From: Desulfosporosinus acidiphilus SJ4 | GTDB taxonomy: Bacteria > Bacillota > Desulfitobacteriia > Desulfitobacteriales > Desulfitobacteriaceae | DNA length: 64,000 nucleotides | NCBI RefSeq assembly: GCF_000255115.2 | Contig: NC_018068.1 | Location: 310,001-374,000 of the forward strand | Direction of reading: 5' to 3' | In this document: positions 11,216 through 25,110 of the stretch, in pieces | Numbering within the stretch: the stretch's first letter is position 1 | How the letters are laid out: the number at the start of each line of letters is the position of its first letter | The notes under the pieces: model-generated | The model's input: the letters and a program-made list of their open reading frames with translations, nothing else | What the model was told of the DNA's origin: nothing | The model's database searches: none | Translations under genes and position numbers: made by a program

Positions 11216-12517
11216 TCATTGACCCAAAAAGGGATCGGAATCACCATTGACGATAAATGCACCATAGTGCTCTAATCGAGAAATTGAGAGCTTGGAATTT
11301 TCCGACACAACAACTCCGGCCCTGCCGGGATAATATCTTAGGAATTGTTCAATGATTTCTGGCGACTCAGCTTTAAGCACAACCGGTTTTCTAATCGTTA
11401 AGCCAAATTGACCCGCAAAATCGATAACATCAAAAAAGGTTTCTGCGATATTGCCAAAATCCAACAGTAAGTAATCAAAAGCATCGGTTCGGCACTCTCG
11501 GGCTAGGCTGGAAAAGTTCCCATCGATTAAAGAAGTCATAGCATCTTGTGACAGTCTTTTTACGGAGTGTTCCTGGTTGGGAGAAAGTACAAGATGGTTA
11601 AAGGCCGAGGCAAGAGTTGGTGTGGATTGCAAATGTATTTCTGGAATTTCAAGTCCTGTAAGCGCCTTCTTCAATTCACGAATAAATTCAGGACTGGTCC
11701 CGCAACATCCGCCAATCAACCGGACGCCGTTTTCCACGAATTCTTTAGTATAAGAACTAAATTGTTCCGGGGTTTGACGATAAATGATTTCCCCATTAAG
11801 GAGCTCAGGCATGCCGGCATTTGGTTTGACGCAAAGAGGAACGGAGGCAACGGTATACATTTTTTTGATAGGTTCGATCAAACTATCCGGACCGCCTGAA
11901 CAATTTGCCCCCACCATTGCAGCGCCAAGGGACTGACAGGCGATAGCACAAGATTCCGGAGAATTACCGAAGGTTGTCCTGCCATTAGATTCAAAGGTTG
12001 CCGAAGCAATAATCGGAAGCTTTGTCGTTTCTTTGGCAGCTAAGACAGCGGCTCTTAATTCATTTAAATCGATAAAGGTCTCAAAGTTTACAAGATCGGC
12101 ACCGGCTGCCTCGACAGCCTTTAGAGTTTCGTGAAAAACATCGTAGGCTTCTTCAAAGCTTAAATCACCGGAAGGTTCTAAAATTGTACCTGTAGGTCCC
12201 AAGGAAGCGGCAATCATGGTGTCTTCACCTGCTGCTTCACGCGCTAATTTCACACCTGCTGCCACAAGTTCGTATGTTTTGTCCCCGAGACCATGCTTGT
12301 CCAGGGTGATTTTGTTGCCGGGAAAAGTATTTGTCTGGATTATGTCTGAACCGGCTTGCCGGTATTCAACATAGAGATTTCTTACAATCTCCGGATGAGA
12401 CAAATTCCAGGCTTCGGAAGCTTCATGTCCGCTTAGACCTTTTCTTTGCAGCATAACTCCTTTAGAGCCATCATATAATAAAACGTTTTGCTGAATTGAG
12501 CTTAGAAAGTCCTTCAA
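11216..12517 (-). CDS. Homocysteine S-methyltransferase domain protein (MetH module-like) with extra C-terminal domain
   Basis: 433 residues. Residues ~1-290 are a homocysteine/betaine methyltransferase barrel: the Zn ligands are seen in 'GANCSGGPD' and 'IGGCCGTSPE', and the N-terminal 'LYDGSKGVMLQ' is typical. It moves a methyl group to homocysteine or a similar thiol, usually from a corrinoid protein or S-methyl donor. The last ~130 residues ('FDYLLLDFGNIAETFFDVID...') do not match the catalytic barrel, the cobalamin module or a complete pterin domain that I can recognise. No corrinoid protein gene is adjacent, so the donor is unknown. Confidence 0.8.
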   Translation of the reverse strand: MKDFLSSIQQNVLLYDGSKGVMLQRKGLSGHEASEAWNLSHPEIVRNLYVEYRQAGSDIIQTNTFPGNKITLDKHGLGDKTYELVAAGVKLAREAAGEDTMIAASLGPTGTILEPSGDLSFEEAYDVFHETLKAVEAAGADLVNFETFIDLNELRAAVLAAKETTKLPIIASATFESNGRTTFGNSPESCAIACQSLGAAMVGANCSGGPDSLIEPIKKMYTVASVPLCVKPNAGMPELLNGEIIYRQTPEQFSSYTKEFVENGVRLIGGCCGTSPEFIRELKKALTGLEIPEIHLQSTPTLASAFNHLVLSPNQEHSVKRLSQDAMTSLIDGNFSSLARECRTDAFDYLLLDFGNIAETFFDVIDFAGQFGLTIRKPVVLKAESPEIIEQFLRYYPGRAGVVVSENSKLSISRLEHYGAFIVNGDSDPFLGQ

Positions 12518-12625
12518 AGTTTTAAACCTCCCTTTTGGTCAAGATTATTATGCTCGGTTAATAAGCTCAATACTAAACTAAAGTTGCCTCTTTAAGCAAC
12601 TAAGAATTTAAAATTATTTATGATT

Positions 12626-12681
12626 AACTAGGCAGCCGCCTGCGCCTGAGGCTTGGTGCCAGCTAAGTTTTCTTTAGTTCA
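12626..12681 (+). repeat. Dispersed intergenic repeat, family B copy
   Basis: AACTAGGCAGCCGCCTGCGCC...AGCTAAGTTTTCTTTAGTT matches the core of the copies at 27,221-27,270 and 28,249-28,310. It lies 5' of the methyltransferase gene on its sense strand. Confidence 0.6.
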
Positions 12682-12699
12682 AGCGTTGTTGCAGTCGAA

Positions 12700-12729
12700 A
12701 CCCCCTAATACGGCAAGGTATTAGGGGGT
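12700..12729. terminator. Hairpin after the CMD-like gene
   Basis: Perfect 12-bp stem ACCCCCTAATAC/GTATTAGGGGGT with a 6-base loop. The T-run is poor, so termination strength is uncertain. Confidence 0.5.
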
Positions 12730-12772
12730 CTTAGGATGGCGGAGTGTCATTGAAGCCAAAGGATAGTGAGAT

Positions 12773-13078
12773 TTAGGAATCTTTCTTAGCAAAGGCGGCT
12801 GAGGATGTTGTCAATATAGAATTGCCAAAAGCGAAGTAGGCAATTCGCAGAGCCTCAGCAATTTCCGCATCGCTGGTACCTTGGGCCCTTAATTGATTGG
12901 CAATCGATGTCACTCCTTGACCGGCCCCGTGAGCGGCATCTAATGCGAGGGCAATCAACAGTTTAGTCTTTTGATCTAAAGCTCCCGGTGTCATGGCAGA
13001 GGCAAAAACCTTTTCGATGGCTTGAGCAAAGTCCGGATCATTGCTTTCTAAGAACTTTAAATACATAGGTAGTGACAT
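12773..13078 (-). CDS. Carboxymuconolactone decarboxylase-family protein lacking the CxxC
   Basis: 101 residues with the CMD/AhpD helical pattern 'DQKTKLLIALALDAAHGAGQGVTSIANQLRAQGTSDAEIAEALRIA' in outline (start and end given as KTKLLIALA and AEALRIAYF). Redox-active AhpD proteins have CxxCxxxH at the helix turn; here that place reads AAHGAGQG, with no cysteine in the whole protein. It is therefore unlikely to be a peroxidase reductant. Function unknown. It stands alone with a conserved start, MSLPMYLKFL. Confidence 0.75.
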   Translation of the reverse strand: MSLPMYLKFLESNDPDFAQAIEKVFASAMTPGALDQKTKLLIALALDAAHGAGQGVTSIANQLRAQGTSDAEIAEALRIAYFAFGNSILTTSSAAFAKKDS

Positions 13079-13225
13079 AGATAGGCCTCCCCGTATAATT
13101 GATTTTTTAACTAGTTTATCACAAAACTATAGGGGGTCATAATAACGATCAGACAATTTTTCTATTCCCCGAAATCAAAGAAAGAATGTTGTGAGGGAGT
13201 GGGGGTAGAGTCCATCCTTCAGCGC

Positions 13226-13323
13226 GATAGCATTTGTTATTGGCTAGGCGCCTTCGGCGAAACTGTCCACAGGAAACTTTCGTCACCGAAGCCCCGAGGT
13301 TCCGCTTTAGCTGAACGAGTTTA
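13226..13323 (+). repeat. Dispersed intergenic repeat, family A copy 1
   Basis: Begins GATAGCATTTGTTATTGGC and runs through CTTTAGCTGAACGAGTT. The first 26 bases are identical to 63,598-63,623, and the following ~70 bases stay alignable with the same spacing. It has internal inverted segments (GGCGCC, GCTTCGGTGACG/CGTCACCGAAGC type). The 3' end also matches 19,262-19,298 in reverse orientation. The rest of 13,079-13,449 contains no gene. Confidence 0.75.
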
Positions 13324-13449
13324 CTGTGTTGACATGAATTATGTATTAGCATAATTAATCGTCAATTTATTGACGGATTAGACACCGTGTACTATAATTC
13401 GCTTGGCTACCTAACGTTTGGTAGGCAATGAGTCAGGAGTGTTGCTGCA

Positions 13450-13998
13450 ATGGAAACAAAGAAAAAACTTATGGATTCCGCCTTTAAATTGTTTGCTTAT
13501 AAAGGGAACGGTTTTTCCCTTAGCGAAGTGGCAAGTGAAGTTGGAATACAAAAGGCCTCGATATATGCTCATTTTGCCAGTAAAGAAGAGCTGCTGTATG
13601 CGGTGATTGATCAAGAGATCAATCAATATTTTTTTGAAATTAATGAGCATTATAGAGATCTAAAAACTCTGTTTTCTATGACTTTGAATTATTATGACAA
13701 ATCACAAGCTAAATTGTATTTTTGGAAAAGGCTGTTACTGTTTCCGCCAAAAGCTTTTACTCAAACGTTGATCGCCAAAATACACGTTTTATCTGAGGAA
13801 CGATTCCAAATGGTCAAAGATATTATCTGTGCCTATATGAAGGAGGGGATTATTCGCAATCAAGATCCGGAAACGGTGGCTATTTCTTATATGGCCATGA
13901 TTCATGGAATCTTATCAAGCATCATTATCTATCAAGCTGAAAATGTTACGATCCATTTTGAAGACATCTGGGAAAATTTTTGGAAGGGAATTTGCTAA
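13450..13998 (+). CDS. TetR-family transcriptional regulator, likely controls the downstream Ehr operon
   Basis: 182 residues. N-terminal HTH: 'AFKLFAYKGNGFSLSEVASEVGIQKASIYAHFASKEELLYAVI' in outline (helices ending SIYAHFASKEEL). The C-terminal part is the variable ligand-binding domain. The stop codon lies only 45 bases before the first gene of the Hyf-like complex on the same strand, so it probably senses something tied to that complex's use and shares its transcript. No palindromic operator was obvious upstream. Confidence 0.9.
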   Translation: METKKKLMDSAFKLFAYKGNGFSLSEVASEVGIQKASIYAHFASKEELLYAVIDQEINQYFFEINEHYRDLKTLFSMTLNYYDKSQAKLYFWKRLLLFPPKAFTQTLIAKIHVLSEERFQMVKDIICAYMKEGIIRNQDPETVAISYMAMIHGILSSIIIYQAENVTIHFEDIWENFWKGIC

Positions 13999-14042
13999 AG
14001 TCCTAGAGGAAAATCTGCAAATTTTTGGAGGTCTAATTATTC

Positions 14043-16106
14043 ATGGAGTTATTTCTGCGTAATTTGTTAGTGACGTCCATTTCACTTTATGTCTTGGGTG
14101 CTGCTTTGGCTATCGTTAATCTCTTCAGCAAACGACAAAAAAACGGCAGTGCGGGCAATATCATCAGCATGATCATTAATGGCATCTGTATTGTTGCTTC
14201 CGGTCTTGGAGCAGCCGCATCCCTTGCTAAAATTCTATTGTTAGCGAATTCACTTAAACTTCTTAGCATACCATCTGTCATCCCGTTTATGACTCTAGAT
14301 ATGAACCTCGACAACCTGTCGGCGTTCTTTGTCTTAGCCCTATCTGTCCTGGTATTCTGTGTATCCATATATTCTATCGGCTATCTTTCACAATACAAGG
14401 GGAAAAGAAATATAGGACTATTTAATTTCTTGTATACAACGTTTATTCTCTCGATGATTTGTGTCCTGACTTCAGCCAATACAGTATTCTTCTATATATC
14501 TTGGGAAGCCATGTCTTTGCTTTCCTACTTTTTGGTGGTTTTCGAGTCAGAGAAAGAGGAAAACACAAAAGCAGGAACCCTGTACATTGTCATGACCCAC
14601 ATAGCCACAGCACTGCTCCTCATTGGGTTTATTATCATATATAGTTATACAAAGTCCTTTGCTTTAAGTGCCAACACTTTGGCTGTTCCTGGGATGGCCA
14701 AAAATATTGTGTTTGTACTCTTCTTGATCGGTTTTGGAACGAAGGCCGGTATTATACCTCTGCACATTTGGCTGCCTCACGCCCACCCTGCGGCACCCAG
14801 CAATGTTTCGGCACTAATGTCGGGCATCATGATTAAGACAGCAATTTATGGACTGGTTCGTTTTGTACTTTGTTATCTGGGCATCCAGAATACCTGGTGG
14901 GGGATTGTGATCTTAATTCTTGGCATTCTGTCTGCTGTTCTCGGCGTTGCCTATACTTCGATGGAGCATAACATTAAGCGCCTTTTGGCCTTTTGCAGTG
15001 TGGAAAATATCGGGATTATCCTGATTGGCTTAGGTGTTTCTTTTATTGCCTTTGCCCTGCATCATCAAATTGTCGGCGGGTTAGCTCTGACGGCTGCTCT
15101 TTTGCATACCTTCAACCATACGTTATTTAAAGGCGGTCTGTTTCTCGGTGCAGGAGCTATTCAATACGCAACCCATACTAAAAATATTGAAGATTTAGGC
15201 GGCCTCATTAAAACAATGCCTCTTACGGCCTTGTTTGTTCTTTGTTTTTCTCTGGCAATATCGGCCATCGTTCCTTTTAATGGTTTTGTCAGTGAATGGC
15301 TTACCTATCAGTCCCTGTTTGCCACTATTCTACCTGAACATATCGGACTGAATTTCTTAGCTGTTTTAGCTGTCGCAGCACTTGCTCTGACAGGGGCTCT
15401 AGCTGCGGCTGCCTTTGTGAAACTTTTCGGCATATCTTTTTTAGGTTCGCCCAGAACTGAGCAAGCAGCCAAAGCCCAAGATGTTCCGGCAACGATGACG
15501 ATAGGGATGGGGATACTCGCTGCCCTCTGCCTGGGCATTGGCCTTTTTCCTTTAACGATGATTAAGCTTTTGGACAAGGTCATTTTCAGTTTAGGCGGCG
15601 GTTCCATCTACGGTCAGCTGCGGGGAGGGTTTTTGCTGGCCTATTACCCCTTAACAATTTCAGTAAACAGCATATCCCCCTTTGTTTTTATCCTCGCTTT
15701 AGGTGCCATCATTCTGCTTGCACTGATCGTGATTAGAATTGTTGGCGGAAAATACAGCGAAGGTCGATATGGGACTTGGGATTGTGGTTTTGAGGCTTTG
15801 AATTCACGGATGCAATATAGTGCTACGGGCTTTTCTAAACCGATTATGATCGTCTTTAGGGCATTATTCAGACCGATTCGAAAAACTATAAGTGAAGGAG
15901 ATTCGCAGTATCATCCGGAATCGATCATGTATTCCACGACGGTTACTTCAATTTTTGAAGATTACCTTTATGAGCCTCTATATCGGGCACTTCTCAAGTT
16001 TTCCAAGAGAACAAAGTTTAGAGTTCAGACCGGCAGCATTCATAACTATCTCTTCTATATTTTTGCGCTGGTCTTGTTGTTAATGCTATATAACCGTATT
16101 GCTTAA
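14043..16106 (+). CDS. HyfB/HycC-like membrane antiporter-type subunit of an Ehr complex
   Basis: 687 residues, about 15-16 membrane helices plus a long amphipathic region at the end, related to NuoL and to Mrp antiporter subunits. Charged and polar residues of the ion channel are kept: 'YISWEAMSLLSYFLVVFESE', 'GTKAGIIPLHIWLPHAHPAAP' and 'HTFNHTLFKGGLFLGAGA'. It should form the proton or sodium translocating module. GGAGG sits 12 bases before the ATG. First structural gene of a six-gene operon whose large subunit is not a hydrogenase (see 19,429). Confidence 0.9.
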   Translation: MELFLRNLLVTSISLYVLGAALAIVNLFSKRQKNGSAGNIISMIINGICIVASGLGAAASLAKILLLANSLKLLSIPSVIPFMTLDMNLDNLSAFFVLALSVLVFCVSIYSIGYLSQYKGKRNIGLFNFLYTTFILSMICVLTSANTVFFYISWEAMSLLSYFLVVFESEKEENTKAGTLYIVMTHIATALLLIGFIIIYSYTKSFALSANTLAVPGMAKNIVFVLFLIGFGTKAGIIPLHIWLPHAHPAAPSNVSALMSGIMIKTAIYGLVRFVLCYLGIQNTWWGIVILILGILSAVLGVAYTSMEHNIKRLLAFCSVENIGIILIGLGVSFIAFALHHQIVGGLALTAALLHTFNHTLFKGGLFLGAGAIQYATHTKNIEDLGGLIKTMPLTALFVLCFSLAISAIVPFNGFVSEWLTYQSLFATILPEHIGLNFLAVLAVAALALTGALAAAAFVKLFGISFLGSPRTEQAAKAQDVPATMTIGMGILAALCLGIGLFPLTMIKLLDKVIFSLGGGSIYGQLRGGFLLAYYPLTISVNSISPFVFILALGAIILLALIVIRIVGGKYSEGRYGTWDCGFEALNSRMQYSATGFSKPIMIVFRALFRPIRKTISEGDSQYHPESIMYSTTVTSIFEDYLYEPLYRALLKFSKRTKFRVQTGSIHNYLFYIFALVLLLMLYNRIA

Positions 16107-16145
16107 GAATTACGGTTCGCCGGGAAAGAGAGGGGAGATTGCGCA

Positions 16146-17102
16146 ATGAACAGTATCGTTTACCTCTTGGTTCAATTATTGGTTATTCTACTAGCCGCGC
16201 CTTTCGTGAACGGAGTCATCAAAAAGGTTAAGGCTTTGAGCCAGAAAAGAAAAGGTGCTTCAGTTTTTCAGATGTATTTTGATTTGCACAAGCTTATTAA
16301 AAAGAAAGCTGTCGTCTCGGATGTATCTTCATGGGTTTTTAAAGTAACTCCCTATATTGTCTTTGCCACAGCTTTAGCCGCTGCTTTACTTGTTCCCGTA
16401 TCGACGAAGATTCTGCCGCCTCAAATCCCGGGTGACTTCCTTATGCTTGTTTCCATCCTGGCTCTTGGCAGATTTTTCCTGATGATTGCGGCTTTAGACA
16501 CGGCAAGTACGTTTGGCGGAATGGGGAGCAGCAGGGAGGCCCTGATTTCTTCGCTCTTTGAACCGTCTATCCTCGTTTCTATGTTTACCGTTGCCCTTAT
16601 TTCCCAATCAACATCGCTGCCTCAGATCATGGAAACAGTGCAGACCGTTGGTATCCCCTTAGCCCATCCGGTGTATATCATGGTTGGCCTGGCCTTGTTA
16701 ATTATCATCCTGGCGGAGACTTGCCGCATACCCGTTGATGATCCGGCAACCCATCTGGAATTAACCATGGTTCATGAGGCCATGATTCTGGAGTATTCCG
16801 GGAGACATTTGGCTTTGCTGGAATACGGTGCTGCGGTAAAGCAACTTGTTTTTATGACCTTGTTTGTGAACATTTTAATTCCTCAAGATCAGCTGATTGG
16901 TCTCATAGGTTTTGGCGGTCTGATCCTTTCGCTTCTTATTTATTTGCTAAAGGTCATTCTGCTGGCTTTGCTCTTGGGAATTATTGAGGTCAATACGGTA
17001 AAATTAAAGCTTTTCAGTATTCCTAATCTGGCGGCCTTATCGTTTATTCTTGCATTTTTAGGCGTTTTACAGTTTTTGATCCTGGGAGGTAAGCATGTCT
17101 AG
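16146..17102 (+). CDS. HyfC/HycD (NuoH-like) membrane subunit
   Basis: 318 residues, eight or so membrane helices. Carries the NuoH loop pattern 'ETCRIPVDDPATHLELTMVHEAMILEYSG' in outline, with the conserved Glu/Asp residues that couple electron transfer to ion pumping. It anchors the peripheral arm to the membrane arm. The next gene starts within its last codons (8-base overlap, ATG at 17,095 preceded by GGAGGTAAGC). Confidence 0.92.
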   Translation: MNSIVYLLVQLLVILLAAPFVNGVIKKVKALSQKRKGASVFQMYFDLHKLIKKKAVVSDVSSWVFKVTPYIVFATALAAALLVPVSTKILPPQIPGDFLMLVSILALGRFFLMIAALDTASTFGGMGSSREALISSLFEPSILVSMFTVALISQSTSLPQIMETVQTVGIPLAHPVYIMVGLALLIIILAETCRIPVDDPATHLELTMVHEAMILEYSGRHLALLEYGAAVKQLVFMTLFVNILIPQDQLIGLIGFGGLILSLLIYLLKVILLALLLGIIEVNTVKLKLFSIPNLAALSFILAFLGVLQFLILGGKHV

Positions 17103-17769
17103 TTTTGCAGTTAGTTCTAATCTTCTGGAAACCTTATCGGGCCTGATATTATTGTCTTCCTTTGTTCTAACGGCGAATAAAAGAATCAATTCCTATATTA
17201 AAACCTTCAGGATTCAGTCGTTCCTGATAGCACTGGCCGCCGGGATTATGGGGATCCAAAGTTTGCTGAGCGAGGGGCGTTGGGATTTTGTGGCAGTATG
17301 TTTGCTGATCTTTATCCTTAAAGTCTTATATATTCCCAACGCTTTGAGCAAAACTTACGCCAATGTCCGATACAAAGTTGAAAAAGACTTTATTTTAAAT
17401 ATTCCTATTCTAGTCTTGCTGTGCAGCGGACTTGTTGTGTTTACCTACTTCACTTTGACGGGGGTTGACGGGATAAGCCAAAATGCTCTTAACATACAGC
17501 TTGTCAACTCGGTCTCTGTGATTTGGATTGGTCTGTTGTTTATGATCAGCCGTAAAAAAGCCATCGGTCAGATCATAGGCTTTTTGGTCATTGAAAACGG
17601 TCTCTATATCACCGCTATGTTCTCAACTCAAGGCATGCCATTTATCGTTGACGTGGGGATATTTATTGACCTTCTTACGTTTGTGCTGATTATGGGTGTG
17701 ATGACGTTTCGCATCAATGAAAAGTTCGATTCCATTGATACAGATCAACTGAATAACTTGAAAGGATAA
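17095..17769 (+). CDS. HyfE-like (NuoK-related) membrane subunit
   Basis: 224 residues, about six membrane helices. The N-half is the NuoK-like part and the C-half matches HyfE: 'GFLVIENGLYITAMF' and 'DVGIFIDLLTFVLIMGVMTFRI'. The membrane glutamate in 'IENG' is the family's ion-channel residue. It overlaps the previous gene and is followed at nine bases by the next one, so they are one transcript. Confidence 0.88.
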   Translation: MSSFAVSSNLLETLSGLILLSSFVLTANKRINSYIKTFRIQSFLIALAAGIMGIQSLLSEGRWDFVAVCLLIFILKVLYIPNALSKTYANVRYKVEKDFILNIPILVLLCSGLVVFTYFTLTGVDGISQNALNIQLVNSVSVIWIGLLFMISRKKAIGQIIGFLVIENGLYITAMFSTQGMPFIVDVGIFIDLLTFVLIMGVMTFRINEKFDSIDTDQLNNLKG

Positions 17770-17778
17770 GATACGAAG

Positions 17779-19251
17779 ATGGGCATTTTACTCCTGACCG
17801 TCCCTGTCATTGCAGCCCTGTTGCTATTAATCATCAAGCAGAGCCGATTCCGGCATGCCATAAGCGTTGGAGCATCAAGTTTGCTGCTGATTTCGGCCTC
17901 AAGCTTGAATCGCGAAGTGCTGCTTCATGGCAGTGTCCAATACGCTTCCTTCGGCAGCTTCTTCTATGTTGATGCTTTAAGCATGATTGTTCTGGACATT
18001 GTCCTGATCATTAGTTTTATGGCGGCCATTGTTTCCATTGGCTATTTAGAGGAGGAAATTAAGCAAGGTAAGCTTAAAAAAGAAAGACTGGGCCTCTATT
18101 ACAGTCTGATGTATACGTTTATTTTTACCATGGTGCTTGCTTTAACCGTGAAAAATATGGGTTTGATGTGGATTGCCATTGAGGCTACAACCTTGTCTTC
18201 AGCATTTCTGGTAGGGTTTTATAATGATAAACACGCTTTGGAAGCTGCCTGGAAGTATGTGATTCTCTGCTCGGTAGGAATTGCCATTGCCTTGCTTGGC
18301 ATCATTTTGCTTCATCTCTCCTCAGCCGGTGTTTTAAACAGCAGCTCATTTTTAGATTGGACCGCTTTATATGCTAAGGCACCTTTCCTGCAAAGTTCTG
18401 TTTTGCGACTGGCCTTTATTTTTATTCTGGTTGGTTTTGGAACGAAGGCGGGTCTTGCTCCGATGCATAACTGGCTTCCTGATGCTCACAGCCAAGCCCC
18501 TTCCCCAATCAGTGCCATGCTCTCCGGGGTCCTGCTGAACACAGCCTTGTATGGAATTATTCGTGCGGCAGTTATTGTAAATCATAATCAGGGAGGCAGC
18601 AGCTTTACCGGAAGACTTCTCATGGGCATTGGAATTTTATCTATTGCCACTGCCGCCGTCTTCATTCTAACCCAAAAAGACTATAAAAGGCTCTTGGCCT
18701 ACTCGAGTATTGAACACATGGGAATTATTGTTGTTGCCATGGGTCTATACTCTCCTCTGTCCGTCTTCGGAGGGCTCATGCATATGATCAACCACTCTCT
18801 GACCAAATCGATGTTGTTTTTCTCCTCGGGTAATATTATGCAAAAATATGAAACGAAACAGATTTCCAAGCTGAAGGGAGTCTTGAAAATAATGCCTGTA
18901 ACGGGAACGGTCTTCCTGCTTGGTTTGTTTGCCATTGCCGGTACTCCGCCCTTCAGCGTCTTCGCCAGCGAGTTTAGTATTGTTGTTGCCCTATTTACTG
19001 GGCCCTATAAATGGGTTGGGGTAATCTTTGTTTTACTTTTGGCAGCCGTATTTGCCGGAATTGCCGTGACTTTACTGAAGATCTTTTACGGTGCACCAAG
19101 CGATCAGGACTTGAAGGCCGGTGAATTAAACCTTCCGGGGACCGTATGCCTGGTGATACTTTTAGTTGGGATTGCTATAAGCGGTCTTTATATGCCTGGA
19201 GATATAAAAGAACTTATTACGAGGGCGCAAGGTATCATTCTTGGAACATAA
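17779..19251 (+). CDS. HyfF-like (NuoL/NuoN-related) membrane antiporter subunit
   Basis: 490 residues, about 14 helices. 'WIAIEATTLSSAFLVGFY', 'GFGTKAGLAPMHNWLPDAHSQAP' and 'HMINHSLTKSMLFFSSGN' are the NuoN/HyfF versions of the ion-translocating helices with their Lys, Glu and His. Together with the HyfB-like protein the complex has two antiporter-type modules, as in Hyf of E. coli rather than the one of Hyc. Confidence 0.9.
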   Translation: MGILLLTVPVIAALLLLIIKQSRFRHAISVGASSLLLISASSLNREVLLHGSVQYASFGSFFYVDALSMIVLDIVLIISFMAAIVSIGYLEEEIKQGKLKKERLGLYYSLMYTFIFTMVLALTVKNMGLMWIAIEATTLSSAFLVGFYNDKHALEAAWKYVILCSVGIAIALLGIILLHLSSAGVLNSSSFLDWTALYAKAPFLQSSVLRLAFIFILVGFGTKAGLAPMHNWLPDAHSQAPSPISAMLSGVLLNTALYGIIRAAVIVNHNQGGSSFTGRLLMGIGILSIATAAVFILTQKDYKRLLAYSSIEHMGIIVVAMGLYSPLSVFGGLMHMINHSLTKSMLFFSSGNIMQKYETKQISKLKGVLKIMPVTGTVFLLGLFAIAGTPPFSVFASEFSIVVALFTGPYKWVGVIFVLLLAAVFAGIAVTLLKIFYGAPSDQDLKAGELNLPGTVCLVILLVGIAISGLYMPGDIKELITRAQGIILGT

Positions 19252-19261
19252 GCTTATGACA

Positions 19262-19323
19262 GTGAACTCGTTCAGCTAAAGCTCAACATCGGGGCTTCAG
19301 ATGGGGACTGTACCCATCTGAAG
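19262..19323. repeat. Family A repeat fragment with perfect 11-bp hairpin inside the Ehr operon
   Basis: 19,262-19,298 is the reverse complement of the 3' end of family A (GAACTCGTTCAGCTAAAGC). It runs into a perfect hairpin, CTTCAGATGGG-GACTGTA-CCCATCTGAAG (19,295-19,323). There is no T-run, so it may act as an RNA-processing or stabilising element between membrane and peripheral subunit genes. Confidence 0.6.
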
Positions 19324-19428
19324 TTTAACGAAGGACCATCCCTTACTTATAAAAGCGGGGGTTTTAAAAACTGGATAAACTCTCAAAAGAATAGCCGGTG
19401 GAATACAGAAATAGGAGGGGCACGAAGG

Positions 19429-21135
19429 GTGACGATGTTAAACTTAATAGAGAATCTTGAGGGGGAATTTTCTCTCAAGGTATTTTCAGGCCAAGAATTT
19501 TCAGAGACAGCCTTTCCGCCGAGAACGAAAAGTTCAACTAATAATTTCCGGGCCGCTTCGGAGCCCTATGAAGAAAATTTGAAAGATGCCGGTTCCAGCA
19601 ATCGTGACGATAAGTCTGCACCGAAACCAGATAATACGTATTATCTGGAAGTGCCTCTTGAAAGGATCAAAGAGATTTGCAGCTATATTCAAGAAATCGG
19701 CTATCCACTCGTCTTAATGTTTGCTAATGACGAGCAAAATTTCCAAGCGGGTTATGCTGTTAATTATGTCTTTGCGGCTCGAGAAGAAGGAATGCTCCTG
19801 GTTATTAAAACGAAAGTAGACCCCGAAACCATGGAGATTCCCTCTATCAGCAATCAGGTTCACGCTGCTTCAGGTTATGAACGGGAAATTCAGGACTTGT
19901 TCGGAATTGTGCCGGTTGGGCATCCCGACGGTAAACGATTGGTATTTCATAGCAATTGGCCCCAAGGAGCTTATCCTCTGCGCAAGGATTTTGCTGTCGG
20001 GCAAAAACCCGCATTTGCTCAGGAAAAAATCCGTTTTCAAGAAGTAGAAGGTGAAGGGGTTTTTGAGATTCCTGTTGGCCCGGTTCACGCCGGGATTATC
20101 GAACCGGGGCACTTCCGGTTCAGTGTTGCGGGTGAACCGGTCATCAACCTTGAAGCACAATTGTATTTCGTTCATAAGGGAATTGAAAAATTGGCGGAAA
20201 GTCAAAGCATTGAAAAGTGCCTGTATATTGCCGAACGGGTCTCCGGGGATGAGACCTTTGCTAATTCCTTAGCCTATTGTCAAGCGATTGAAAAAATTGC
20301 AGAGATGAAAATTCCTGTCAGAGCAGCATATACCAGAGTTCTTTTTGCCGAACTGGAGAGACTCACCAGTCACTTAGGCGACCTTGGAGGAATTTGTCTC
20401 GACACAGGGTATGGTTTTGCCAACTTTCAGTTTCAAATGATGAGAGGCTGGGCTTATTTAATTGCCGATGAACTCTGTGGTATGCGTTTTTTACGAAGTG
20501 TCAATAAATTAGGCGGAGTCCGCAAGGACTTTGTCTCCGGTAAGGAAGCTAAGCAGATTGAACTGCTGTTGAAAATTCGTACCGAACTTGAAGACACCGT
20601 GAACATTATTAAATCGAACAGCATGTTTATCGATAGGGTAGAAAATACAGGTATCCTGGAGACAAAAATAGCGGTGGATTTGAATGCTGTAGGCCCGGGA
20701 GGGAGGGCGTCAGGAATTCGCTACGATGTTCGCAAAGCATTTCCTTATGCGGCTTATGCGAACCTGGAATTTAATGTTCCTGAGCACAACAATGGTGACA
20801 TCAACTGCAGGATGAATACTAAAATTGAAGAGTGCTTTGAATCGATAAGCTTAATGATTCAGGTTCTTGAAGGGATGCCGGAGGGGAAGGTTTGCGAACC
20901 GATCGCGGAAGTTAAACCCTATCGCTTTGCCTTCGGCTTAACTGAAGCACCGCGGGGAGAAAATATTCACTGGTTAATGACAGGAGAGAATAATACTATT
21001 TACCGCTATAAAATCAGAACTCCTTCCTTCTGCAACTGGCCTGCTCTCTGCCATGCTGTTAAGGGAAATATCGTCCCGGATTTTCCCCTGATTAATAAGA
21101 GTTTTAACCTTTCCTATGCCGGAAACGATTTGTAG
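19429..21135 (+). CDS. HyfG/HycE-like large subunit (NuoC-NuoD fusion) without NiFe ligands
   Basis: 568 residues. The N-terminal ~200 form a NuoC-like 30-kDa domain ('EIQDLFGIVPVGHPDGKRL', 'YPLRKDF'); the rest is NuoD/large-subunit-like. True group 4 hydrogenases have RxCGxCxxxH and DPCxxC to hold Ni-Fe. Here these places read 'ERVSGDETFANS' (~residue 270) and 'FNLSYAGNDL' at the very end: all four cysteines and the His are replaced. So it cannot bind a NiFe centre and should not evolve H2. This is the state described for energy-converting-hydrogenase-related (Ehr) complexes. ATAGGAGGGG lies eight bases before the GTG start. Confidence 0.9.
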   Translation: MTMLNLIENLEGEFSLKVFSGQEFSETAFPPRTKSSTNNFRAASEPYEENLKDAGSSNRDDKSAPKPDNTYYLEVPLERIKEICSYIQEIGYPLVLMFANDEQNFQAGYAVNYVFAAREEGMLLVIKTKVDPETMEIPSISNQVHAASGYEREIQDLFGIVPVGHPDGKRLVFHSNWPQGAYPLRKDFAVGQKPAFAQEKIRFQEVEGEGVFEIPVGPVHAGIIEPGHFRFSVAGEPVINLEAQLYFVHKGIEKLAESQSIEKCLYIAERVSGDETFANSLAYCQAIEKIAEMKIPVRAAYTRVLFAELERLTSHLGDLGGICLDTGYGFANFQFQMMRGWAYLIADELCGMRFLRSVNKLGGVRKDFVSGKEAKQIELLLKIRTELEDTVNIIKSNSMFIDRVENTGILETKIAVDLNAVGPGGRASGIRYDVRKAFPYAAYANLEFNVPEHNNGDINCRMNTKIEECFESISLMIQVLEGMPEGKVCEPIAEVKPYRFAFGLTEAPRGENIHWLMTGENNTIYRYKIRTPSFCNWPALCHAVKGNIVPDFPLINKSFNLSYAGNDL

Positions 21136-21169
21136 AGCGGTCTGCCTTTTGGATTCGTAAATTGGCATG

Positions 21170-21292
21170 GAAGCCGGAACCGTAGGGCAAACGGGGATAG
21201 CTTGGTAATTATACGGGCGTTAGCCGGTATGTCCCAAGAAGCCCCCGCCTCTGAGCGCGAGCGAAGGTGGTGGGAGTATGTCACGACTAAGC
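21170..21292. repeat. REP-like hairpin element inside the Ehr operon
   Basis: The gap between the last two Ehr genes holds CCCCGCCTCTGAGCGCGAGCG and AAGGTGGTGGGAGTATGTCA-like sequence that folds on itself. The GGTGGGAGTA part recurs at 63,579-63,590 (CGGTGGGAGTACTTCA) beside family A copy 2. Confidence 0.45.
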
Positions 21293-21305
21293 AAGGAAGA
21301 TGGAT

Positions 21306-22106
21306 ATGTTTAATACTTTGAAAAAGATTATCAAATATCCAAGGTTGACGCAGGATTATCCAAATATAAAAGATAGTACCTCCGCTTCGTTTCTGGGTCA
21401 AACGGTGATAGACCCGGGTAAATGCACGTTCTGCGGGGAATGTGCCTTGCATTGCCCTTCTCAAGCTATTATTTTTGATAAAAGCGCCCGCGCCATTGGT
21501 ATTGATTACGCGAAGTGTATCTTTTGCGTTCTGTGCGAGGAGATATGCCCGGTGAGTGCTGTGCAAACGACCAACAATTTTGAGCTTGCCGAAAGCGATA
21601 AGGTAAAGTTAAATCCTCATGACAAGAAAACTACTATAATTAATGAAGATAATTTGCCAGATACCTCTTACGAAACTATTTGCAGGGATTTACAAGCTAA
21701 TATTAAGAAGATTTTTGGCCGAAGTCTCCAAATCAGGGAGGTCGATGCCGGGTCCTGTAATGGTTGTGACTACGAAATTAATGCCTTGAACAACCCTTTT
21801 AACGACCTGGAAAGACTCGGGATTAGTTTTGTTGCCTCTCCGCGGCATGCCGACATGTTGTTGGTAACAGGAACCGGGACTCGAAATATGCAGCAGGCTC
21901 TCATAAAAACCTATCAAGCGACGCCGGATCCCAAGCTTGTTGTCGCCGTTGGTGCCTGCGCCTGCAGCGGAGGAATATTCAGAGATACCTATGCCACAAA
22001 CAATGGCATTGATTCGTTGGTTCCCGTGGACGTCTATATTCCCGGATGTCCGCCAAGACCTCAGGCAATAATTTATGGAATCCTGAAGGCTATTGACAGA
22101 GTTTAG
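21306..22106 (+). CDS. Fused 2x[4Fe-4S] ferredoxin and NuoB/HyfI-like small subunit
   Basis: 266 residues. Residues ~35-95 hold two CxxCxxCxxxCP motifs ('CTFCGECALHCP', 'CIFCVLCEEICP'), the HyfH/HycF part. From ~residue 145 it is the NuoB/HyfI small subunit with the proximal-cluster ligands kept: 'GSCNGCDYEI', 'GACACSGG' and 'PGCPPRP'. In E. coli these are separate genes. The start at 21,306 (MFNTL) has AAGGAAG at good spacing; ATG at 21,300 is too close. Last gene of the operon. It should bring electrons from a soluble donor to the Ni-less large subunit. Confidence 0.9.
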   Translation: MFNTLKKIIKYPRLTQDYPNIKDSTSASFLGQTVIDPGKCTFCGECALHCPSQAIIFDKSARAIGIDYAKCIFCVLCEEICPVSAVQTTNNFELAESDKVKLNPHDKKTTIINEDNLPDTSYETICRDLQANIKKIFGRSLQIREVDAGSCNGCDYEINALNNPFNDLERLGISFVASPRHADMLLVTGTGTRNMQQALIKTYQATPDPKLVVAVGACACSGGIFRDTYATNNGIDSLVPVDVYIPGCPPRPQAIIYGILKAIDRV

Positions 22107-22201
22107 TGAACCAGTCCGGCTATAGCTGTACATCGGGACTTCAACGATAGTCTCCAGTGGAGAGTATCGTCAAAGCCTCCTGTAGCCAAAAAAGAATGCT
22201 T

Positions 22202-22240
22202 AAATTCCCGCACTATTGAACAGGGTGCGGGAATTTTTAT
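22202..22240 (+). terminator. Intrinsic terminator of the Ehr operon
   Basis: AAATTCCCGCAC...GTGCGGGAATTT with an 11-base loop, followed by TTAT. Upstream (22,118-22,180) is another degenerate family-A-like piece with CATCGGGACTTC and a hairpin. Confidence 0.8.
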
Positions 22241-22299
22241 GGCCTTTTAATTAGTTAACTGAAGTTTCGTGCTTTGGGTCAGCAACTTTTTGACATTTC

Positions 22300-23148
22300 T
22301 CAGAACATAGAAGGAGCATTTTGTTGAGTAGTTTTTCTTGGGATTTGATAAACGATAAAACCTATTGCCAGGCTGAAGAAGGAAAAGATTAAAGCCAATT
22401 CTGAAAGAGTGACAATATAAGCGGTATAATGAGTTATTTTCGTGATATAACCATACGTATTAATATTTAGTAAACTTCCAATGGTTGAGAGACTGAAGAG
22501 GACAAAGAAGAGGGCAATCAGTCCCTGAGCTGCTCCCTCAATGTCTGCCCAGCTTAAGGCTATATGGGACGAAACACAGATAGCGATTACGAGAAAAATC
22601 CAGAAGTTTAAGCTTAATAAATTGCTTAAGGTAAAGATGGTTCTGAATAAAAGAGCACTGCTGTTGAAAAACTCCCTAATCGAGGTTAAGTCGGCTGGCT
22701 TTGAGAGCACTTGTGTTTTTAAATATAATTCGTAGACACTAAATGATTTCGGCAAGAAAAAGTGCAGGCAGAGAAACAGAACGCCAATACCTGTGATTAG
22801 AGGTGCCATGCCAATGAAGAGATTTCCTACGGACTGATAAATACTCTTTCTATTGTAAGAGTGAGAGACATAGCCCAGGGTACCATTTGAACGATTAAGT
22901 GTCAGTAATTTTATATCGGTTATTTTATGACCAAAAATCAGACACATAAAGGCATGCCCCAGCTCGTGAACCGGAGTTCCAAGCCAAGCCGTCGCTAAAA
23001 TTCCCTTATAACCAAAGGCTTTAAAGAAATACATGTTAGACTTGCGTTCTATGAAGCCTAGTATTAATCCAATAACAAATAACGGTCCTACAAGGCTGAT
23101 TAATTCAAAGAGGCTGGTCTTAAGAGCACCCAATAATAGTTGTTCCAT
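22300..23148 (-). CDS. M50-like membrane zinc metallopeptidase homologue
   Basis: 282 residues with about six membrane helices. 'GTPVHELGHAFMCLIFGH' near residue 60 contains HExxH, the zinc site of site-2-type intramembrane proteases. The second family motif (NPDG/LDG type) is not clear; 'WADIEGAAQG' near residue 205 may stand in for it with Asp and Glu. Function may be regulated proteolysis, but it could also be a non-proteolytic relative. Single gene on the minus strand. Confidence 0.65.
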   Translation of the reverse strand: MEQLLLGALKTSLFELISLVGPLFVIGLILGFIERKSNMYFFKAFGYKGILATAWLGTPVHELGHAFMCLIFGHKITDIKLLTLNRSNGTLGYVSHSYNRKSIYQSVGNLFIGMAPLITGIGVLFLCLHFFLPKSFSVYELYLKTQVLSKPADLTSIREFFNSSALLFRTIFTLSNLLSLNFWIFLVIAICVSSHIALSWADIEGAAQGLIALFFVLFSLSTIGSLLNINTYGYITKITHYTAYIVTLSELALIFSFFSLAIGFIVYQIPRKTTQQNAPSMF

Positions 23149-23221
23149 TTTTAATTCTCTCAGTTTCGTTTTATTTGGATGTATTTTACCTTTGTTTAGG
23201 ATGTTTCAGTCCATAATTCCC

Positions 23222-24148
23222 TTAGGCAGCGCTGTTGGCTTTTTCGGTATAGTTTCTTTTTGCTTCCGGCCGTGTCGTTAGATATACACCAGAAATGACG
23301 ATGGCGGCCCCGATAAGTTTAATGAGTGTGATTGATTCTCCAAGGATAGTCACGGACTGAATAATCGTAAAGATCGGGACCAAATTAATAAAAACAGCGG
23401 TTCGGGGAGCCCCAATCCGTTGAATAGCAACCATCTGAATAAGATAACCCAAGACAGAGGCAAATACGCTCATATAAAGAATTGAGAGCCATCCCTTAAC
23501 CGACGCTGAAAATAAATAGCTCGATGGGTTCTCCCATAAAAGGAAAGGGACGGAGATGATAACGCAGATCAAGAAGGTATAAGCAGTTACCATCAGAGGG
23601 GAGAGGTGATATTGCTTCATATAACGGCGGCTAAGCAGGGAATAAACAGCGAAACAGCAAACGGCAGCCAGCATAATGAGGTCCCCTTTATTAAAACGAA
23701 ATTGGGAAATAAGCTGAAGATCACCATTGGTAATAACAAGGAAAACGCCGCTAAACGATAAAATAAAGCCAAATGTCCTCGTAGGAGTCAATTTTTCGCC
23801 AAAGAACAATACTGCCAGAAGTGCAGTAACCATAGGATTCATAGCCCCGATAAGCGAGGAATTAATGGCCGTGGTATATTTTAAGGAAGTAAAGAATAAT
23901 GAGTGATAGCAAAATGTTCCGATAAAGCCGAGAACAATAAGGGGGACCCATTGTTTACCGCGGGGGATAAGGTTACCCGGTTCTCGGAAATACAGTATTC
24001 CGAAAATAAATGGCAGAGCGAAGAGGAAGCGAAAGAAAGTAAGGGCAAAAGGAGGAAATGCTCCTACTGCAATTTTACCGGTAATAAAAGCGCCGGACCA
24101 AAATATAGACGTCATGACCATTAAAAGGTGAATCTTTTTATCGGACAA
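23222..24148 (-). CDS. EamA/DMT-family transporter
   Basis: 308 residues, ten membrane helices in two EamA repeats: 'SIFWSGAFITGKIAVGAFPP' opening the first, and 'GDLIMLAAVCCFAVYSLLSRR' opening the second. These carriers export or exchange metabolites such as amino acids or nucleosides; the substrate cannot be assigned. Single gene, convergent with nothing close. Confidence 0.9.
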   Translation of the reverse strand: MSDKKIHLLMVMTSIFWSGAFITGKIAVGAFPPFALTFFRFLFALPFIFGILYFREPGNLIPRGKQWVPLIVLGFIGTFCYHSLFFTSLKYTTAINSSLIGAMNPMVTALLAVLFFGEKLTPTRTFGFILSFSGVFLVITNGDLQLISQFRFNKGDLIMLAAVCCFAVYSLLSRRYMKQYHLSPLMVTAYTFLICVIISVPFLLWENPSSYLFSASVKGWLSILYMSVFASVLGYLIQMVAIQRIGAPRTAVFINLVPIFTIIQSVTILGESITLIKLIGAAIVISGVYLTTRPEAKRNYTEKANSAA

Positions 24149-24265
24149 TTCCAGCTCGCTCCTCTCCAGAGATATTCATTCGCTAGACATATCAAACCAA
24201 TTATAGACGAAATCCCAAAATTATCAAAGAAATTTAGATCAGAGAATGTTCATAGTATCCTTAAT

Positions 24266-24328
24266 CTAAGCTTTAAATGCTGCTGCGTTTTTCATTAAAT
24301 AATAGACCATTTCCAGATCAAAATTCAT
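24266..24328 (-). CDS. Possible 20-residue peptide
   Basis: ATG at 24,328 gives MNFDLEMVYYLMKNAAAFKA and stop. It is amphipathic and compact, but no convincing ribosome site precedes it. The 24,149-24,444 gap has nothing else that I can identify. Low confidence. Confidence 0.2.
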   Translation of the reverse strand: MNFDLEMVYYLMKNAAAFKA

Positions 24329-24444
24329 AAATTCTTATTCAATCTGAGGCCGAGAATTAAAAGTTTAGGCTGCCGTTTGCCAACTTGTAAATTAATTTTT
24401 TAAGAGTATAATGCTACTCATTAAATAGAGTAATTTAGTAGGAG

Positions 24445-25110
24445 ATGATTATGACCTTGAACGTAATTGCTATTAATGGAAGTCCGAGGAAAACTTGGAA
24501 TACTGCTACGCTGTTGCAAAGAGCTCTGGAGGGTGCTGAATCTGTCGGAGCTCAAACGGAAATTATACATTTAGCTGACTTGAATTTTAAAGGATGCATT
24601 AGCTGCTTCGCTTGTAAGCGGAAAGGTTCTTTGAATGCCGGACATTGTGCCGTACGGGATGATTTAACCAATGTTTTGGAGAAAGTCTTAGTGGCCGACG
24701 TCCTCCTCATTGGTTCACCTATCTATTTTGGAAATGTTACCGCCGGGGTACGGGGTTTTCTGGAACGGTTGTTATTTTCTAACCTATCCTATAATGAACG
24801 CCATGAATCTGTTTTTCAAGGCAAGCTATCATCGGGTTTCATATATACTATGAATGTTCCGGAGGATTTTTTGAAACACGTTAACTACGAAGAAAATGTG
24901 TTTCAGAATTATAAAAACATGCTGCAGCGGCTGGGAGGGCCCTCCGAATTTGTAATTTCCACGGATACCTACCAATTTGACGATTACTCCAAATATGAGG
25001 CATCCATGTTTGATGTAAACCACAAGGCTAAAGTGAAAGCCGAGCGATTTCCGATCGATTGTCAGAAGGCCTTTGATATGGGAGCTAAATTAGCGAGCAG
25101 CTCAATCTAA
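24445..25110 (+). CDS. Flavodoxin-like NADPH-dependent FMN reductase / iron-sulfur flavoprotein type
   Basis: 221 residues. FMN phosphate loop 'AINGSPRKTWNTATLL' at the N-terminus. 'GCISCFACKRKGSLNAGHC' near residue 50 matches the CxxC-rich loop of iron-sulfur flavoproteins, and 'GSPIYFGNVTAGVRGFLERL' is the NADPH_dep_red signature. It likely shuttles electrons in the cytoplasm. A decayed C-terminal copy of a close paralogue lies at 41,367-41,601. Confidence 0.88.
   Translation: MIMTLNVIAINGSPRKTWNTATLLQRALEGAESVGAQTEIIHLADLNFKGCISCFACKRKGSLNAGHCAVRDDLTNVLEKVLVADVLLIGSPIYFGNVTAGVRGFLERLLFSNLSYNERHESVFQGKLSSGFIYTMNVPEDFLKHVNYEENVFQNYKNMLQRLGGPSEFVISTDTYQFDDYSKYEASMFDVNHKAKVKAERFPIDCQKAFDMGAKLASSSI

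Follow-up and report, generated by a model that had tools for sequence, protein, structure and literature searches.

A conserved Ehr-like operon with its own TetR gene in Desulfosporosinus acidiphilus SJ4, predicted to encode a complex without a NiFe site

Ehr complexes are a known class that is listed as function unknown. As far as they are described in the parts of the literature cited, those of Geobacter, Sulfobacillus and Margulisbacteria have a group-4-like large subunit without NiFe ligands, as well as HyfB/NuoL-, HyfE- and NuoH-like membrane subunits (PMC4378227, PMC7894505, PMC6349859). A stepwise loss over membrane-bound hydrogenase (MBH), membrane-bound sulfane sulfur reductase (MBS) and complex I has been described too, in the section cited of PMC7684303. 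The present study deals with a 64,000-nucleotide stretch of Desulfosporosinus acidiphilus SJ4 (assembly GCF_000255115.2, contig NC_018068.1, positions 310,001 to 374,000; further referred to as the window), in which six intact genes in one direction (14043-22106) encode a Hyf-like complex. These genes were named ehrABCD, ehrL and ehrS here, following Ehr usage.

The Pfam and NCBIfam assignments comprised a HyfB-like, a NuoH-like, a HyfE-like, a HyfF-like, and a NuoC+NuoD-like subunit, and a ferredoxin fused to a NuoB-like small subunit, although all matches to NCBIfam hydrogenase-4 families scored under the cut-offs of those families (EhrA versus subunit B, 648 bits with a cut-off of 667; EhrC versus the membrane subunit, 88 with 136; EhrD versus subunit F, 484 with 610). 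This agrees with the first-pass annotation of the sequence, which had read the operon as holding all parts of a formate-hydrogenlyase-like complex with two antiporter modules. Indeed, HyfB/NuoL-, HyfE- and NuoH-like subunits are encoded and the large subunit lacks both RxCGxCxxxH and DPCxxC, so that the predicted complex is Ehr-like in make-up, the published Ehr complexes being compared by description. It is a real, conserved and regulated Bacillota variant of the known Ehr kind. No paper on the clade, its motif or its TetR was found in the literature listings searched, which were partial and covered subscription papers poorly.

The NiFe pocket and the retained parts of the complex

The large subunit EhrL carries ERVSGDETFANS (residues 269-280) as first motif and NLSYAG (residues 560-565) as second motif. 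Its nearest solved relative is HycE (7z0s; E 6e-91), and the alignment of both, one of the checks proposed in the first-pass annotation, places S272, E275, S562 and G565 of EhrL at C241, C244, C531 and C534 of HycE, whereby all four NiFe-binding cysteines are replaced. In addition, H248 of HycE aligns with N279, the canopy Asp529 with N560, and Arg537 with the last residue, L568. The four Cys ligands of group-4 NiFe hydrogenases are thus lacking, indicating that EhrL has no NiFe site and that the complex is not a NiFe hydrogenase; it almost certainly acts on a substrate other than hydrogen. The loss of every NiFe ligand and the Ehr-type assignment, both claimed earlier, were thereby upheld. 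Two findings that could have overturned them were looked for without success. Sequencing error, as well as a pseudogene, is ruled out because all 15 rows of the tree clade, which come from independent assemblies, carry these four replacements. Similarly, a separate large subunit with intact CxxC motifs for the same complex was not found in the genome of the strain by a PF00374 scan or with EhrL as query; at E <= 1e-10, this query matched only EhrL itself and one NuoD, and the three places with PF00374 hydrogenase matches (five matches, of which three are parts of a single frame) were not among its hits.

Six more rows with the motif, found by the phylum search, extended the set to 21 rows (from 20 genomes plus L038, a named metagenome locus); this set was selected by the motif, which is therefore not counted as evidence within it, and the six added rows (L090-L095) are in no tree. 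A fragment (L043), whose motif agrees, and duplicates from the same genome were omitted. The rows are 46 to 85% identical to EhrL of the window. Invariant positions numbered 134 out of 568, versus 130 in 32 four-Cys relatives (not counting L096, which displays CCFC), and 18 of the last 24 residues of EhrL were invariant. The β1-2 loop glutamate (E225), the buried relay (H315, R426 and E468), D274, N279 and N560 were identical in 21/21 rows, and the canopy arginine (R509) in 20/21. Such kept proton-delivery residues suggest a proton-coupled reaction. Fourteen fixed differences separated these 21 rows from the four-Cys relatives, six of which fall on the four Cys positions, on N560 (the place of the canopy Asp) and on L568 (that of the C-terminal Arg); as the Cys positions defined the groups, only N560 and L568 count as independent differences among these six. 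The fixed signature SGDE...N and NLSYxGNDL could serve to separate such complexes from hydrogenases in annotation.

The small subunit was expected to have retained its cluster ligands, and this held: EhrS contains eight ferredoxin cysteines (42, 45, 48, 52, 73, 76, 79 and 83) and, by alignment, the proximal-cluster ligands C153, C156, C220 and C250. Among 28 loci from the clade and its relatives, a scan for the small-subunit Cys pattern matched 25; in the two-Cys loci L072, L073 and L075, the pattern start fell on the ferredoxin, leaving the small-subunit CxxC unread there. By eye, L068 and L069 display the fused ferredoxin-small subunit form; no ferredoxin part was visible in the four-Cys relative L077. 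Concerning ion transport, nine HycC and eight HycD residues are named in the part cited of PMC9474812. Seven of the nine HycC positions were identical in EhrA and six in EhrD, as were five of the eight HycD positions, which form the E-channel, in EhrB.

Distribution, phylogeny and regulation

The 20 genomes with the operon came from overlapping searches of 100 relatives (14 genomes), 398 genomes of the phylum (12) and 82 genomes of the class (13). Within the genus Desulfosporosinus, the operon occurred in 3 of 29 genomes. Wherever a clade locus is not truncated by the end of its contig, the order of the six genes was constant. In a tree built without the motif columns, restricted to rows from Bacillota genomes and Escherichia coli and with the NuoD of complex I as outgroup, the clade was placed inside the group-4 hydrogenases with a support of 100/99 (14 rows), or 96/86 when L019 was included. 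NuoD stood apart, and joining it with the EhrL clade was rejected by the approximately unbiased (AU) test (p = 0.006), with the caveats that the tree was a quick one, that long branches were present and that the groups were named after the first tree. Two odd large subunits on very long branches (L053 and L063), with SCSE and ASNS at the ligand places, were present in the first tree and left out of the AU-test tree.

A neighbouring clade of seven rows from Desulfosporosinus genomes (L023, L024, L025, L028, L029, L074 and L075) retains two cysteines (SGIC/LSYAC) and has the same Ser as the EhrL clade at ligand positions one and three. These rows would represent a second hydrogenase-like complex whose NiFe site is incomplete. 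That the two-Cys and zero-Cys clades arose together is neither rejected nor shown (AU p = 0.44); their pattern parallels the stepwise loss over MBH, MBS and complex I, as described in the cited section of PMC7684303.

A gene homologous to the tetR gene of the window, located 44 bases upstream of ehrA, immediately preceded ehrA in 10 loci of 10 genomes. No tetR homologue was found near the operon in seven loci with upstream DNA (L041 and L135-L140), and four loci (L038, L042, L069 and L070) had too little upstream sequence for a judgement. An 18-bp palindrome with consensus CTACCTAACGTTAGGTAG lay before tetR in all 10 tetR-bearing loci, with zero or one mismatch in nine of these and three in L039. 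It follows the -10 box by about 9 bases in the window, occupies a matching place elsewhere, and starts 43-47 bases before tetR where this was measured. When the 20 whole genomes were scanned with at most two mismatches, it occurred once in each of nine genomes, always at the tetR site, and was absent from the remaining 11; the backward sequence, used as control, matched one genome. Its chance expectation in the window is 0.02 at three mismatches. Since the palindrome is single in these nine genomes, that of the window included, TetR is probably dedicated to the ehr operon and would control tetR-ehr alone. The first-pass proposal that this regulator belongs with the complex thus gained ground, from its position in 10 genomes and its one apparent operator, and that reading also stood as to the absence of a NiFe site and the Ehr-like make-up. 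TetR had no match in PADLOC, and its best PDB match, Lmo2088, names no ligand. Separately, an operator-like site with three mismatches was present upstream of ehrA in L135 (16578-16595), where no tetR neighbour was found. Handles on the function of the complex are offered by the putative repressor, which has one apparent operator and a ligand open to screening, and by the close four- and two-Cys relatives available for comparison.

Proposed mechanism and rival explanations

On balance, the complex is considered a stand-alone, TetR-controlled ion pump of the complex I superfamily and of the Ehr kind, which would be driven by ferredoxin and would use an acceptor that is neither H+ nor obligately quinone. 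Reduced ferredoxin would pass electrons to the ferredoxin domain of EhrS and thence to the proximal cluster, adjacent to what was once the NiFe pocket of EhrL. A small acceptor of the kind just named would be reduced at this place, with protons supplied via E225, and this reduction would drive ion transport through EhrB, EhrA and EhrD. TetR would repress tetR-ehr at the one palindrome near the transcription start and would leave it in response to a signal linked to the substrate. The findings are consistent with ferredoxin as donor, with ion pumping and with this direction of electron flow.

Several points weigh against this mechanism, which is derived from sequence and has a hypothetical acceptor, while its ferredoxin donor would follow from the EhrS domain and from relatives. 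The canopy Asp, described as strictly conserved (in the part cited of PMC9474812), is Asn in EhrL. The E-channel residues E199, E201 and Y102 of HycD are A201, H203 and S103 in EhrB; H291 and C430 of HycC are changed in both EhrA and EhrD, and K239 in EhrD too. In addition, the tetR neighbour was seen in only 10 of 20 genomes, and an AlphaFold model of EhrL (8 rows) had a mean predicted local distance difference test score of 47.7 and was not used. A UbiA-family prenyltransferase, finally, was found in 17 of 20 genomes, so that a quinone-like lipid is conceivable.

The latter touches upon the possibility that the complex is a ferredoxin:menaquinone oxidoreductase, in which the quinone site of complex I was independently re-invented in the old NiFe pocket. 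The loss of all four cysteines parallels complex I, the His of the NiFe site (HycE H248) is Asn in both (N279 in EhrL, N93 in NuoD), and quinones have been proposed as acceptor of a putative formate dehydrogenase-Ehr complex (PMC6349859, as far as cited). Moreover, an MqnA/D-family match was present in the window genome and two genus mates, and MenD exceeded its cut-off in four genomes of genus g11, presumably Dehalobacter. However, the equivalents of H38 and Y87 of complex I are absent (I224 and G273 in EhrL), the UbiA-family match is absent in three of 20 genomes, and the pocket is identical in genomes with and without menaquinone markers. MqnA/D was over its cut-off in four of 20 operon genomes (weakly in G351) and MenD likewise in four, 15 more giving weaker MenD matches only, as other thiamine-diphosphate enzymes would; neither marker was over cut-off in 12 of 20 genomes, ten of which are at least 90% complete, although G063, which is among these 12, belongs to the same genus as MenD-positive genomes, so that MenD may merely be missing from it. 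A general quinone reductase is thus doubtful because of the absent His/Tyr pair and the 12 genomes without both markers; this explanation is unlikely, and the acceptor is probably a non-quinone, although a quinone is conceivable in the window genome with its MqnA/D. An MBS-like reaction, in which sulfane sulfur or polysulfide would be reduced at the proximal cluster, seems somewhat less likely still. Desulfosporosinus species are sulfate reducers, and EhrL shares with MBS the absence of the H38/Y87 pair. MBS lost two NiFe cysteines and works without the other two, according to the section cited of PMC7684303, where it is also described as without an equivalent of MbhL E21 and without the proton pathway; in contrast, E225 of EhrL aligns with MbhL E21 and the relay is kept. 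Since PMC9474812, in the part cited, gives MbsL one acidic residue on the β1-2 loop, the papers differ and this argument against an MBS-like reaction is only moderate. A further argument against it is the presence of the operon in what is presumably Dehalobacter restrictus, a species described as growing only by H2-dependent dechlorination (in the part cited of PMC3910700).

Operation in reverse, with the ion gradient driving ferredoxin reduction by a reduced substrate, is judged improbable. Such complexes are reversible in principle, but sequence sets no direction for electron flow. PMC3910700 discusses, for dechlorinators, reverse electron flow via complexes of six subunits and, in the section cited, also refers to a study that found it unlikely in Dehalococcoides. 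A complex with a defunct redox part that acts merely as a cation/proton antiporter would fit the missing active-site ligands next to complete antiporter subunits. However, the clade loci that were read have retained the Cys patterns of ferredoxin and small subunit, and EhrL is constrained as strongly as its four-Cys relatives, making this very improbable. Returning to the ferredoxin-driven pump, a more far-reaching version of it is put forward only tentatively, namely that the operon represents a separate repurposing of the NiFe pocket besides those of MBS and complex I, yielding a proton-coupled, ion-pumping ferredoxin:X oxidoreductase, whereby X would be neither proton, quinone nor polysulfide and its signal molecule would be read by a one-operon TetR. 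If true, the Ser that the two-Cys and zero-Cys clades share at the first and third ligand positions would make a series of four, two and zero cysteines visible in living Bacillota.

Operon organisation, neighbourhood and comparison with known systems

The features of the locus are listed in the table. The start codon of ehrL is GTG, an ATG at 19435 being possible too. The scanned region held 18 promoter-like sites, equal to the shuffle expectation (mean 17.8), so that the case for the site before tetR rests on its position ahead of the operator. The insert between ehrD and ehrL had 42 matches in its own genome, including the query itself and one palindromic self-match, and by eye carries an 11-bp inverted repeat. 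The insert between ehrL and ehrS is nearly unique, with one other partial match (51 bases) in the genome; its 3' part presumably resembles an IS200/IS605-type right end. Neither insert belongs to the conserved operon; the corresponding gaps are short in Desulfosporosinus acididurans M1 (L036) and in L040. An Rfam scan of 12000-24500 gave nothing at gathering score.

Features of the ehr locus (positions in the window)
Feature	Position	Strand	Remarks
Promoter-like site before tetR, TTGACG-17-TATAAT	13370..13398	+	11/12 consensus matches, best of 18 in scanned region
Putative TetR operator, 18-bp palindrome CTACCTAACGTTTGGTAG	13407..13424		1 mismatch to CTACCTAACGTTAGGTAG
tetR, 182 aa	13450..13998	+	PF00440, E 3e-11; adjoins ehrA in 10 loci
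ehrA, HyfB-like antiporter-type subunit, 687 aa	14043..16106	+	PF00361, E 1e-52
ehrB, HyfC/NuoH-like membrane anchor, 318 aa	16146..17102	+	PF00146, E 1.5e-36
ehrC, HyfE-like membrane subunit, 224 aa	17095..17769	+	
ehrD, HyfF-like antiporter-type subunit, 490 aa	17779..19251	+	PF00361, E 9e-54
Non-coding insert between ehrD and ehrL	19252..19428		Member of a dispersed repeat family
ehrL, fused 30-kDa + 49-kDa/large subunit, 568 aa	19429..21135	+	
Non-coding insert between ehrL and ehrS	21136..21299		
ehrS, 2x[4Fe-4S] ferredoxin domain fused to NuoB/HycG-like small subunit, 268 aa	21300..22106	+	PF01058, Fer4 families

Clade-wide, no neighbouring gene beyond tetR was common to different genera, so that no conserved partner gene emerged; the family scans covered two sets, of nine and ten proteins. 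This absence of a shared neighbour suits a soluble carrier as donor. Dehalobacter-like loci share, as seen in L065, a GerA spore-germination operon, a carbon-nitrogen hydrolase, an EamA transporter, a PadR regulator and an alpha/beta hydrolase. The three Desulfosporosinus loci have in common a homocysteine S-methyltransferase, a carboxymuconolactone-decarboxylase-like gene and an M50B-like gene, together with an EamA transporter (a name given here to 23222-24148 of the window) and a flavin mononucleotide-reductase/flavodoxin-like gene, as genus mates would. An ODP/flavodoxin-type protein adjoins ehrS in L140. In L142 (1-594), a 198-aa frame at the contig edge past ehrS gave only a Fis-type helix-turn-helix in Pfam, its first part resembling a molybdopterin oxidoreductase by eye, unsupported by Pfam. 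As for links to other pathways, no positive link with the Wood-Ljungdahl pathway was found, CdhC/AcsB being present in 9 of 20 Ehr genomes versus 33 of 40 class mates without Ehr, which were hand-picked and make the comparison confounded by kinship. Replacement of Rnf was rejected too, as RnfC was over its cut-off in 6 of 20 Ehr genomes and the two are not exclusive.

The published 'energy-conserving Ni/Fe hydrogenase' (Hyc-type) of D. restrictus is probably an Ehr complex. In genome G046, taken to be that of D. restrictus PER-K23, Ehr lies near 1.574 Mb (contig C1, 1574127-1575632), and at 1.662 Mb there is a 33%-identical relative whose C and D parts are separate frames. Positions of about 1.587 and 1.665 Mb would be expected if the locus numbers are evenly spaced; the assignment is positional and does not go by locus tag. 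If this holds, an enzyme that figures in ideas on how electrons flow during dechlorination cannot be a hydrogenase. The seven-gene formate hydrogenlyase listed for Dehalobacter CF (PMC4751268, as far as cited) may be tetR plus the six ehr genes.

Unlike the described Ehr complexes, the present one is encoded by six genes, with a ferredoxin fused to the small subunit and a C/D-fused large subunit, and is accompanied by a TetR of its own in half of the genomes or more. Neither an fdh nor a nuoEF gene could be recognised next to the operon, most neighbours not having been scanned for families. With the E. coli formate hydrogenlyase (Hyc) and Hyf, it shares the core subunits and most pumping residues, in line with HycE as nearest solved relative; in contrast, EhrL lacks NiFe ligands as well as a C-terminal tail beyond the motif and has Asn instead of the canopy Asp529, and there is no formate dehydrogenase gene in the ehr operon. 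Pyrococcus MBS resembles it in its abolished NiFe site, its kept Fe-S wire and antiporters, and the absent quinone pair. However, MBS keeps two Cys and EhrL none, whereas E225 and the relay are kept here and MBS is reported without an E21 equivalent and proton path (PMC7684303, section cited), a difference made less certain by the acidic loop residue given for MbsL in PMC9474812. MBS is further marked by a proximal cluster with three Cys ligands and by polysulfide reductase activity; all four small-subunit Cys are present in the EhrS sequence. The complex I treated in PMC11238625 (as far as cited) likewise lacks NiFe ligands, with a probable feeding by ferredoxin, yet EhrL belongs to a separate clade (AU p = 0.006, with the caveats given above) without the His/Tyr quinone pair, and the window genome possesses its own NuoD in addition to EhrL. 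Among the Bacillota relatives, the four-Cys large subunits (CGxC/CYxC, 32 rows, versus SGDE/LSYAG) are 35-43% identical to EhrL over the alignment and the two-Cys ones (SGIC/LSYAC, 7 rows) 43-44%; both have the GPxHAGIIEPGHF and NKSF/Y motifs in common with it, and the gene order is the same in all five of their loci that were read (L072, L073, L075, L076 and L141), L076 being without a small-subunit frame beside the large subunit.

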